Assembly: GCF_029245835.1 (NCBI RefSeq)
Contig: NZ_JAQWOO010000066.1
Coordinates: 1 to 35,170, forward strand
Reading direction: 5' to 3'
Origin: Algibacter sp.
GTDB taxonomy: Bacteria > Bacteroidota > Bacteroidia > Flavobacteriales > Flavobacteriaceae
DNA: 35,170 bases
In this document: positions 30,829 to 33,959 of the stretch, piece by piece
Position numbering within the stretch: the stretch's first letter is position 1
Layout of the letters: every line of letters begins with the position of its first letter
Notes under the pieces: model-generated
What the model was told of the DNA's origin: nothing
What the model saw: only the letters and a program-made list of their open reading frames with translations
Database searches by the model: none
Position numbers and translations under genes: made by a program

Positions 30829-31331
30829 TTATTTTTCAAAGTTTAAATTTTGCGGTTCAGGATTTAAATTAAACGAACTTTTGTCATTTGAAGACTCATT
30901 AAATTTCTCTGCGGAATTCCCAATAATTTCAAAAATTAAATGATCAATCCAAACCTTTCCAGATCCAACTAGTAAAATTCCAAAATTCATAGTGGAGCTA
31001 TTTTCAGGGACATCCAAAATAATCTCATAATTAGTCCAGTCTGTTCTGCCTTTACAAACCCACTCAGTTTAATTCTTTTTCCGCTATACTGTTTGGCTTC
31101 ACAGGACTGCATTAAAGTTCCAAAACCATTAGATATTGAATCTATCGATTCAAGAAATGCACTTTGATTCCCATTTTGGAAGATCGATTTGTCCAATCCA
31201 ATTTTATAACTTTCGGGAATGCTTCCAGTTTTGAACCAGCCTTTCAAAGTTGTCCCTCTACATGAATGTAGTGCTATAATTAGTATTACTAAGAAGAAGG
31301 CAATTGAACCAATTTTTTTTAGAGTTTTCAT
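30829..31331 (-). pseudogene. Decayed lipoprotein gene with internal deletion and frameshift
   Basis: A first frame from ATG 31331 encodes a lipoprotein signal (MKTLKKIGSIAFFLV..., lipobox LHSC) and a GWFKTGSIPESYKIGLD ... YSGKRIKLSGFVKA domain, then shifts out of frame. A second frame, open from about 31056 down to 30829, continues with GRTDWTNYEIILDVPENS, FGILLVGSGKVWIDHLIFEI. As I recall the family, these two parts belong together, separated by about 30-35 residues (a WAGLWMRVD-like segment) that are missing here, so a deletion near 31050-31056 removed them out of frame. Proteins of this type are exported carbohydrate-binding-like domains of unknown role. The C-terminal half could be translated only from an internal ATG. 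Confidence 0.75.
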
Positions 31332-31537
31332 AGTCGTTTAGATCGTAATGTTGTCTAATATCCAGCTTACACAAAACTTGTTATATAGTCACTTTTATGT
31401 TTCATATCCCGTAAATAAGTCAGGATATGGTAAGTATTTTGTTGTTGTTATCCGGTAAATATAAAATATTTTAGAAGAGAAAGATTACAAAAAATTATAA
31501 AAAAGAGACTCCCATTTTCACGGGAATTGTATAAAAT

Positions 31538-31606
31538 GAAAAAGGTGAACGAGTGTTCACCTTTTTGCCCCAAATCTACCATAAACTTAACCTACTTATG
31601 TTATGG
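31538..31606 (-). ncRNA. Putative small RNA, copy 1 (conserved block plus terminator)
   Basis: Read on the minus strand: a -7-like box TATATTTG (31619-31612) with TTTA 19 nt upstream of it, then 5 nt, then the conserved block starting CCATAACATAAGTAGGTTAA and continuing GTTTATGGTAGATTTGGGGC. A terminator follows: GGTGAAC-ACTC-GTTCACC plus T5. The predicted RNA is about 69 nt. The block is repeated with one substitution 215 nt away. It lies downstream of purF in the same direction. No open frame and no known RNA family is recognised. Confidence 0.55.
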
Positions 31607-31611
31607 TTCTT

Positions 31612-31642
31612 CAAATATATGGCAGCTGTATTGTTTGTTAAA
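31612..31642 (-). promoter_or_regulatory. Predicted promoter of small RNA copy 1
   Basis: On the minus strand TTTA (31642-31639), 19 nt, then TATATTTG (31619-31612). The -7 box is a perfect TAnnTTTG; the -33 element has 3 of 4 bases. The predicted start coincides with the first bases of the conserved block. Confidence 0.45.
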
Positions 31643-31749
31643 ATATTTTAGTTAAACGACGCAAATATTGGCTTAAAAGAGGTTATGCCCGTTAATTAGG
31701 GTAAAGTGCAAACATTCAAAATAAAATTAAAAAAGAAAATAAATGGCAT

Positions 31750-31821
31750 AAAAAAAGGCGAACAGATGTTCACCTTTTTTTGCCCCAAATCTACCATGAA
31801 CTTAACCTACTTATGTTATGG
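31750..31821 (-). ncRNA. Putative small RNA, copy 2
   Basis: Nearly identical to copy 1: CCATAACATAAGTAGGTTAA then GTTCATGGTAGATTTGGGGC (one change, T to C) and a terminator GGTGAAC-ATCT-GTTCGCC plus T7. The changed base in the terminator stem makes a U:G pair if transcribed from the minus strand but a C:A mismatch on the plus strand, supporting minus-strand transcription. The -7 box at the same distance (31834-31827, TAAATTGG) is weaker. The predicted length is about 72 nt. Confidence 0.55.
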
Positions 31822-31937
31822 TGAGACCAATTTATGTGTAATTTAAATATTCTGATTATTTTTTAGATAAAACGCATTTTTTCTGGTTAAAATACATTTT
31901 ACTTGGTTTTGTATTGTGAATATTATCAATTTAGTAA

Positions 31938-33836
31938 TTAATATGCGCGTTCATTATTGCCTTCGTAAAAGTTGATAAATGCTCTATTTACTACTCTATT
32001 GCCTCCCACTGTAGGATAGTTTCCTGTAAAATACCAGTCTCCTAAATGATCTGGACAAGCCTTATGTAAATTTTCTACAGGTTGAAAAATAATTTTCACT
32101 TCAGCTTTTAAAGATTCATGACTTAACAACTCTGAAATTTTATCTGAAATCTGTTCGTCTGTAAACGGATCATAAATCTCTTTTACAAAATTCTGAACGT
32201 GTTTATCATCTAAATCAGTTTGCTTAATACATTTAGTATAGACCTCTTTTACAATATCGTATTTCCCAGCTTCTTTTAACAACTCTAAAGCAGCTCTAAA
32301 AGCCACCAAACTTTCAAGGTTTGCCATATCAATACCATAACAATCTGGATAACGAATTTGAGGGGCAGAAGATACTACAACAATCTTTTTAGGATTTAAG
32401 CGGTCTAGCATTTTTAAGATACTCATTTTTAAAGTGGTCCCTCGTACAATACTATCATCAATAATAACAAGATTATCTGTTGGTTTAATGACGCCATAAG
32501 TAACATCATAAACGTGCGCAACTAAATCATCACGACTACTATCTTCAGTAATAAACGTTCTAAGCTTAACATCTTTAATAGCTATTTTTTCTATACGTGG
32601 TCTTTCTTCTAAAATTTCGGTAACTTTTTTAGCAGACATTTTTCCGCCACCGCTTAAAATAGCCTGCGTTTTTTTTACATTTAAATAATCTTCAACGGTT
32701 TCAATCATTCCAAAAAATGAAGTTTCAGCGGTATTAGGAATGTATGAAAAAACGGTGTTTTTGGTATCGTTATCAATGGCTTCTATGACTTTAGGCATTA
32801 ATAGTTCACCTAACATCTTACGCTCTTTATATATTTCGGCATCACTACCTCTTGAGAAATAAATACGCTCAAAAGAACATGATTTTCTTTCCAGAGGTTC
32901 TAATATCTTTTTGATTTCAACCTGACCCGATTTTTTGGTTATAATGGCACATCCAGGATCTAATTCCTTTACATCTTCAAAATCTACATTAAAAACGGTT
33001 TGAATTACTGGACGTTCAGATGCTACCACAACAATTTCATCATCTTGATAATAATAGGCAGGTCGAATTCCTGCAGGATCTCTTAATACAAATGAATCTC
33101 CATGTCCAATAAGGCCAGCCATAGCATAACCACCATCCCAATTTTTGGCCGCACGTCTTAATATCTTACCAACTTTAAGTCGTTCTGCTATTTTAGGAGA
33201 AGCATCTCTTTTATTATAACCTTCTTTTTTTAAGTCTTTGTAAATTTTGCTAACGGCATCATCTAAAAAATGACCAATTTTTTCCATAATGGTTATGGTG
33301 TCGGTATATTCTTTTGGGTGTTGTCCTAATTCAATAAGGTTGCTAAAAAGTTCTTTAACATTGGTCATGTTAAAGTTTCCAGCCATAATTAGGTTTCGGT
33401 GCATCCAGTTGTTTTGTCTTAAAAACGGGTGAACACTTTCTACACTGTTTTTTCCAAAAGTTCCGTAACGAACATGACCCAATAAAACCTCTCCTATATA
33501 AGGAATGTTTCTTTTTTGTGCCGCAACATCTTCTTTATATTCTGGATGAGATTCAAACTCTTGATTAATCCGGTCGTTAATTTGAGCAAAAATATCCTGA
33601 ATAGGTTGTTGTGCTACAGAACGTACCCTACTAATATAACGCTCTCCGGGTTTCGTATCTAATTTTATACTTGCAAAACCAGCACCGTCTTGACCACGAT
33701 TATGCTGTTTTTCCATCATTAAATACATTTTATTTACACCATAAAATGCACTTCCATACTTTTCTTTATAAAACTCTAATGGTTTTAAAAGCCTAATCAT
33801 TGCTATTCCACATTCGTGTTTTAAGGCATCACTCAT
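31938..33836 (-). CDS. purF: Amidophosphoribosyltransferase (long Bacteroidetes form)
   Basis: First step of purine synthesis: glutamine plus PRPP to 5-phosphoribosylamine. The N-terminal Ntn glutaminase has its nucleophile in KHECGIAMIRL (Cys9 from this start), with QHNRGQDGAGFAS and LGHVRYGTFGKNSVESVHPF. The phosphoribosyltransferase domain carries YFSRGSDAEIYKERKMLG and the PRPP loop LVIIDDSIVRGTTLK. At about 632 residues it exceeds E. coli PurF (505), with inserts in the glutaminase domain and an extended C-terminus (HLGDWYFTGNYPTVGG). I choose ATG 33836 (MSDALKHECG) over 33863 because the nucleophile Cys is normally within ~10-15 residues of the N-terminus; the longer start is possible. 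This form may coexist with a classical PurF elsewhere. Confidence 0.9.
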   Translation of the reverse strand: MSDALKHECGIAMIRLLKPLEFYKEKYGSAFYGVNKMYLMMEKQHNRGQDGAGFASIKLDTKPGERYISRVRSVAQQPIQDIFAQINDRINQEFESHPEYKEDVAAQKRNIPYIGEVLLGHVRYGTFGKNSVESVHPFLRQNNWMHRNLIMAGNFNMTNVKELFSNLIELGQHPKEYTDTITIMEKIGHFLDDAVSKIYKDLKKEGYNKRDASPKIAERLKVGKILRRAAKNWDGGYAMAGLIGHGDSFVLRDPAGIRPAYYYQDDEIVVVASERPVIQTVFNVDFEDVKELDPGCAIITKKSGQVEIKKILEPLERKSCSFERIYFSRGSDAEIYKERKMLGELLMPKVIEAIDNDTKNTVFSYIPNTAETSFFGMIETVEDYLNVKKTQAILSGGGKMSAKKVTEILEERPRIEKIAIKDVKLRTFITEDSSRDDLVAHVYDVTYGVIKPTDNLVIIDDSIVRGTTLKMSILKMLDRLNPKKIVVVSSAPQIRYPDCYGIDMANLESLVAFRAALELLKEAGKYDIVKEVYTKCIKQTDLDDKHVQNFVKEIYDPFTDEQISDKISELLSHESLKAEVKIIFQPVENLHKACPDHLGDWYFTGNYPTVGGNRVVNRAFINFYEGNNERAY

Positions 33837-33959
33837 AGTTATAAATGTTTTCGCTTTACTCATTAATTCACATTAAATAATAATGTATTCGTGAATCTTT
33901 GATTTCGCGGATAAAAATATTTTAATCAAAAAACGCACTCAATTTAAGAGCACGTTATT

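Follow-up and report, generated by a model that had tools for sequence, protein, structure and literature searches.

In the window, the whole 35,170-nt stretch of Algibacter sp. DNA analysed here, we identify two tandem units that are quite probably genes of a ~70-nt, trans-acting antisense sRNA family that would block translation of a conserved small protein. Comparison across genomes defines the family and its strand, the conservation of its promoters and terminators, its complementarity to the leader of a small open reading frame (ORF), the co-occurrence of the two genes, and selection on the ORF's coding sequence. The original prediction had proposed a multicopy family of short RNAs with a conserved block as pairing region, which the comparative data support; the small-ORF mRNA, the likely target of this sRNA, is a new result beyond it. 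Flavobacteriaceae form a major group of marine, freshwater and soil bacteria whose sRNAs are little studied; a widespread syntenic sRNA family is gained here, together with a testable target and a conserved small protein.

Two predicted tandem sRNA units downstream of purF

Direct reading and a repeat search bear out the prediction of two near-identical tandem elements on the minus strand. The two ~70-nt units (31539-31606 and 31752-31821) share one layout, in which a TAnnTTnG box is followed after a 5-nt gap by a 40-nt block and then by an intrinsic terminator, and the blocks (31606..31567 and 31821..31782) lie 215 nt apart and differ by one substitution, all as predicted. The substituted base is block position 24, T in copy 1 and C in copy 2. 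In copy 1, the purF-distal unit, the block with the U variant (31567..31606, minus strand) is preceded by the -7 box TATATTTG (31612..31619) and followed by a terminator hairpin and T-run, recognised as an inverted repeat and by its fold, at the predicted 3' end (31539..31566); the likely transcription start is base -1 of the block, at 31607. Further upstream, near -54 to -40, a GTTnnnCTAAAA-like element found from column counts over 101 family copies (31646..31660) is a possible activator site. Copy 2, the purF-proximal unit, has its C-variant block, which sequence, repeat and genome searches all recover, at 31782..31821, its terminator hairpin and T-run (again an inverted repeat that folds) at 31750..31781, its -7 box TAAATTGG, supported by the family alignment of 101 copies, at 31827..31834, and its equivalent of the upstream element, from the same column counts, at 31861..31875, all on the minus strand. 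We take both boxes to be of the Bacteroidota -7 type. The syntenic marker is an amidophosphoribosyltransferase-like ORF on the same strand (31938..33863), for which we keep the name purF given in the original prediction, consistent with the glutamine amidotransferase domains found in it.

The claim that box and block are what is kept between the copies stands, with the amendment that the terminator hairpins are alike too (28 nt, 86%). The argument for the minus strand, drawn from a terminator substitution that keeps pairing on that strand only, also holds, as copy 2 has a folding energy of -18.2 kcal/mol when read on the minus strand versus -14.0 on the plus strand. Doubt had been expressed about a CCATAA/TTATGG stem within the block, and rightly: positions 5 and 24 would form an A-T pair in 33 of 101 copies, against A-C in 67 and A-A in one, and a conserved 5' hairpin is unsupported. 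Compared with shuffles, folding is stronger for the entire unit (z -3.3 and -3.2) but not for its 5' 45 nt alone (z about 0); the structure therefore sits in the terminator. Searching the whole 3.36-Mb genome recovers the second copy at E=8.6e-21, which excludes chance. Only two full copies are found, and the next match, of 24 nt on contig C6, is the leader of the small ORF that we propose as target.

Two further features lie close by. A palindrome-containing 13-mer, TAAAATATTTTAG, occurs at 31462-31474 and again at 31639-31651, the second of these sites lying within the sequence upstream of copy 1. A 114-aa ORF on the minus strand (30987-31331), located downstream of the two sRNA units, has a start that looks by eye like a lipoprotein signal; it is without a match in Pfam and NCBIfam searches.

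A conserved family in Flavobacteriaceae

A DNA search of 99 genomes, our own included, detects the unit (E<1e-8) in 47 of 60 Flavobacteriaceae, the family of our genome, and at that threshold in none of the 39 from other families of the order, where the best E is 0.0015. A pattern scan of named genomes yields at least 118 stretches. Among the matches listed are 80 loci, from Zobellia, Maribacter, Winogradskyella, Tamlana, Algibacter, Aquimarina, Salegentibacter, Flavobacterium and other genera that we take, from general knowledge or their record titles, to be Flavobacteriaceae; a few listed records are titled merely Bacteroidetes or Bacteroidota bacterium. The nearest to the window among the named loci listed is Algibacter luteus (83.8% over 2353 nt).

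Our family set of 101 copies draws on the window plus 40 fetched loci, at one to six copies per locus; it covers part of the genome-search matches and is without those of G021, G022, G024, G029, G052, G054 and G056. The block is near-invariant, with the consensus CCATA[AG]CATAAGTAGGTTAAGTT[CT]ATGGTA(A)GATTTGGGGC, and it is the sequence, not a structure, that is kept: 95 copies fall into six closely related forms, and the remaining six are irregular. The TAnnTTnG box begins at -13 to -15 in 95 of the 101, and 100 have A or G at base -1, so that transcription probably begins there. Terminators are variable, the sequence that follows the block taking 79 different forms. A fold with a T-run is predicted for 98 of 101, as 78 distinct hairpins, and the other three appear to have been shortened by the rule used to find their ends. 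Upstream, T is found at -50 in 91 copies and at -49 in 78, and the consensus at -45 to -40 is CTAAAA; this conserved element near -50 may be an activator site. By sequence, nearly every unit has its own predicted promoter and terminator on one strand, and tandem extra copies retain the entire unit.

The family is also syntenic. Of 120 loci (40 fetched from the genome set and 80 from named genomes, some genomes being counted twice), 108 have a purF match upstream in the same orientation, and the stretch examined shows no purF match in the other 12. Measured from where the purF match ends, the nearest block core is 75-152 nt away in 98 of the 108 loci and 241-1468 nt away in ten.

One group of arrays shows a pattern of its own. 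In seven arrays of the A-insertion clade (L082, L088, L090, L093, L099, L102 and L109) the last copy carries GATTTGGGACG, and these last copies share a distinct, strongly conserved promoter stretch, TTTATTT[CA][CA]C[AG]CAATACCAGTA.TTTAG, which suggests separate regulation of the last copy there.

A small ORF downstream of scoB

The block's short matches elsewhere are the reverse strand of a leader, with CCCCAAATCTACCATAAACTT directly before the ATG of a small ORF. In our own genome this ORF (G000:C6) encodes 42 aa, starting MNIATNLPELP and ending LTKKLFML, and its mRNA is antisense to the block over 21 nt at -29 and over 10 nt in codons 5-8. The sRNA locus and the small ORF are unlinked, on contigs C97 and C6 in our own genome and in purF and scoB neighbourhoods, respectively, elsewhere. 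Across the family the ORF is ~40 aa long, and the region around its start codon carries sequence antisense to the block, in unbroken runs of up to 24 nt. The fetched stretch includes scoB (3-oxoacid CoA-transferase subunit B, named from the own-genome copy) in 39 of 40 small-ORF loci; 30 of the 40 contain a peptide-type ABC ATPase. Where measured (26 loci), the ORF is co-oriented with scoB and begins 163-320 nt beyond it in 24; the search pattern missed the other two.

Codons past the antisense site give a median dN/dS of 0.27 (26 orthologues, 256 unsaturated pairs) and, for nine same-genus ORFs, a mean pS of 0.405 vs a mean pN of 0.066; these substitution patterns indicate that the small ORF is coding and under purifying selection. 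The protein has no match in Pfam (own-genome copy, E up to 1) or in NCBIfam (three copies). AlphaFold2 predicts one helix, at residues 12-41, with a mean pLDDT of 76 and a pTM of 0.37, and no membrane-spanning stretch is seen in the five of 26 small proteins tested, whose best 19-residue hydropathy means are 0.35-1.18. In several genera, sRNA promoters and small-ORF leaders both have a GCATTTCATC[TG]A-like element upstream, and a shared regulator might act on sRNA and small ORF through it.

Complementarity between sRNA and leader

In our own genome, the small-ORF leader is the sole other exact 12-mer antisense match, and a reversed control pattern gives none. Across 60 genomes, the exact 12-mer recovers, in the ten genomes of our own genus, the sRNA copies and the small-ORF leader, plus G002:C11 and G007:C1. 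In 26 small-ORF mRNAs, taken from -100 to +45, we count a mean of 2.5 antisense stretches of at least 9 nt vs 0.10 in shuffles, the longest being 24 nt, and duplex energies lie 5 to 12 standard deviations below those of shuffles. A stretch of at least 9 nt begins at -34 to -22 in 24 of these mRNAs; in G026 and G045 the sole remaining stretch lies within the first codons, and in some genomes the longest is found in the first codons or farther upstream.

Since 16 of the 26 mRNAs come from genomes found via the antisense match itself, the set is partly chosen by the property measured, and the fair test is therefore that of 24 leaders alone (-80 to +3) from mRNAs found by protein similarity, each compared with 200 shuffles; this set includes G030, whose protein similarity is weak but which lies beside scoB. 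Fifteen of these leaders pair better than all 200 shuffles, the median z is -4.8, and 20 reach a z of about -1.6 or lower. The G024 leader is marginal (12 of 200 shuffles), and four (G026, G039, G058 and G030) show no pairing. As a control, none of 26 scoB leaders falls below z=-1.6, and their median z is +0.5. By sequence criteria, then, the predicted sRNA has a conserved, unstructured region able to pair with an mRNA encoded elsewhere in the genome.

That all 40 bases scarcely vary across many genera is uncommon among base-pairing sRNAs, and the long antisense match offers a simple reason for it. In diverged lineages the leader matches the sRNA's 5' half, for example AACTTAACCTATTATG or AACCTACTTATG, start codon included, which may explain why the whole block is kept and not just its GATTTGGGGC end. 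The T/C variant at position 24 shows no significant relation to leader sequence (p=0.15, for a motif picked after inspection).

For the A-insertion clade we rejected the idea of one strong target, since an exact search with CCAAATCTTACCAT in 25 genomes finds, apart from sRNA copies, only scattered matches in G035 (two), G030 (one) and G010 (one). With one mismatch, its match at G036:C2:227196 is the small-ORF leader of that genome. Matches to the antisense pattern in G016 (L240, L241) and G035 (L233, L234) are dispersed, partly palindromic elements of ~100 nt that start CCAAATCT(T)ACCAT-like; these resemble REP-type repeats and may match the pattern by chance.

Co-occurrence of sRNA and small ORF

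Among the 60 Flavobacteriaceae genomes, we count the small ORF in 40 of 48 sRNA-bearing and in none of 12 sRNA-lacking genomes (Fisher p about 1e-7, in a test that ignores shared ancestry). G024 is taken here as sRNA-bearing by inspection; otherwise the counts become 39/47 vs 1/13 (p about 1e-6). Presence was scored by hand, with weak cases judged by eye (G027, G035, G046, G058, G051, G036, G041 and G010), all of which adjoin scoB except the G058 locus (L381). G014 is counted as present despite a shifted frame, and G030 and G056 as absent; counting the very diverged small ORF of G030 and the truncated one, with leader, of G056 would give 42/48. In the 12 genomes lacking the sRNA, we treat A2 matches no better than E 0.018 as chance, and the stretch behind scoB was inspected in six.

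Some genomes have only part of the pair. No small ORF lies behind scoB in sRNA-bearing G016, G029, G040, G052 and G054. In G002 (L400, downstream of scoB) the ORF has decayed and its antisense leader site is still recognisable, and in G014 (L238, L385) and G056 (L382) the antisense sites are kept with a broken frame, through sequencing error or decay. Since five or six genomes keep the sRNA without the small ORF, further targets are likely.

A model for sRNA action and its alternatives

We propose that each sRNA copy is transcribed from its own putative sigma-A-type promoter, and that its 40-nt, mostly unstructured 5' pairing region, followed by an intrinsic terminator, would bind the ribosome-binding region, often with the start codon and first codons, of the small-ORF mRNA, which carries one to several such sites. 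Pairing would block translation initiation and probably also destabilise the mRNA. We infer from sequence comparison both the transcription of the units and repression as its outcome, along with any physiological role. Neither Hfq (PF17209) nor an RRM_1 protein (PF00076) is found in our own genome, which is 97% complete; in a 14-genome control, PF00076 gives matches in Bacteroides ihuae and Synechococcus elongatus. This raises the question of how pairing works when neither protein is found, and long pairing may replace a chaperone. A more far-reaching version, which we consider speculative and rather improbable, is a family-wide Flavobacteriaceae antisense circuit, possibly without a known chaperone, in which the block of a tandem sRNA behind purF is kept almost unchanged because all of it has to fit a single dedicated mRNA with several sites, from the leader through the start codon into the first codons. 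That mRNA, encoding a new small protein beside scoB, would be both target and sponge, and purine and ketoacid metabolism would thereby be coupled.

The proposed translational block has to be weighed against a reading in which the small-ORF mRNA acts mainly as a sponge, titrating or destroying the sRNA, whose main targets would be other mRNAs bound through short seeds. This is unlikely in our judgement, though the presence, in some genera, of multiple sites on one mRNA (six stretches in L161) and the G002 leader site that outlives its decayed ORF make a sponge role possible, and it would also fit the persistence of the sRNA in genomes without the small ORF and a complementarity that exceeds typical sRNA seeds, which are shorter. 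A sponge, however, needs neither a stretch of at least 9 nt that starts at -34 to -22 in 24 of 26 mRNAs, where translation starts, nor purifying selection on the protein, and these two observations favour a translation block over a pure sponge. Searches with 12- to 14-mers gave no second conserved target, although short seeds would escape them. We give still less credence to a type I-like toxin-antitoxin pair, made up of a trans-encoded RNA antitoxin and a small amphipathic toxin. Such a pair would account for a predicted antisense RNA that spans the start of a ~40-aa mRNA, for the 40/48 vs 0/12 co-occurrence and for the helix predicted with modest confidence at residues 12-41, but the genes are unlinked (C97 vs C6) rather than adjacent, the five of 26 proteins tested lack the hydropathy of a hydrophobic toxin (0.35-1.18), and some genomes keep the sRNA without the ORF.

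That the block conserves sequence rather than structure would equally suit titration of an RNA-binding protein, with the leader similarity secondary; yet the leader bears the block's complement and not the block itself, as expected of base pairing and not of a shared protein site, and this explanation is very improbable. Least credible is the view that the units merely belong to the purF 3' UTR or are mobile repeats, with no function of their own; the original prediction had named either as an outcome that would tell against it. The position downstream of purF in 108/120 loci is what such a reading has to offer, and the distance to purF is not random; the copies have their own box (95/101) and terminator (98/101), and tandem extras keep the whole unit. 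Nor is the block mobile-like, with just two full copies in our own genome and no copy in viral contigs by exact pattern or in plasmid and phage collections by blastn at the settings used. We favour translational repression of the small-ORF mRNA by the purF-linked sRNA.

Relation to known sRNA systems

At gathering scores, Rfam finds only a tRNA in the window and no sRNA family; membership in STnc40, sraA, FopS or other families was rejected, as their scores lie far below gathering and several are on the opposite strand. LhrC1-5, AbcR1/2 and PrrF1/2 are near-identical sibling sRNAs with their own promoters and terminators and overlapping targets. The purF-linked sRNAs resemble them in having near-identical copies so equipped, whereas those families belong to other phyla, have other seeds, and mostly act through short seeds on many mRNAs instead of a single long antisense match. 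Type I antitoxins encoded in trans, such as IstR-1 and OhsC, are likewise RNAs complementary to an mRNA for a very small protein; unlike in these systems, the target here is unlinked, the proteins tested are not of transmembrane type, and the sRNA exists without the target in some genomes.

The Rfp sRNAs of Flavobacterium psychrophilum are described as conserved in Flavobacteriaceae and thought to be base-pairing, and Rfp18 as strongly structured, its third stem-loop pairing with metalloprotease mRNAs (PMC9723704). Compared by description, Rfp18 differs from the purF-linked sRNA in structure and targets, and purF is absent from the main text of that paper. Candidate sRNAs without Rfam matches are reported for Flavobacterium columnare in another study (PMC5395568). 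The open-access literature, in the parts available, names no such RNA behind purF.

The nearest system in design is FopS/GibS of Bacteroides thetaiotaomicron (RF04319), which is described as a multicopy sRNA with a single-stranded conserved 5' seed and a Rho-independent terminator that binds beside start codons, has 12-15 paralogues and is bound by the RRM-1 protein RbpB (PMC11697453). The RF04319 model (71 positions) and our block have UUCAUGGUA...AGAUUU in common, but the block scores 21.0 bits against a gathering score of 56, and none of the six copies that make up L082, an array of Zobellia uliginosa type (cf. L263), matches RF04319 at E<=1; membership in RF04319 is not supported. The two also differ in arrangement, with one to six mostly tandem copies behind purF here versus 12-15 paralogues for FopS, and our own genome is without an RRM_1 match (PF00076) that would correspond to RbpB. 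FopS is reported to repress susC-like mRNAs at the start codon; our search covered a general start-site pattern, and we rejected a seed complementary to many start codons, as ATCTACCATGAAC with two mismatches gave 80 matches vs 102 in the reversed control. The purF-linked family would nevertheless work like FopS, sharing with it multiple copies, an unstructured 5' seed, a terminator and predicted pairing at start codons.
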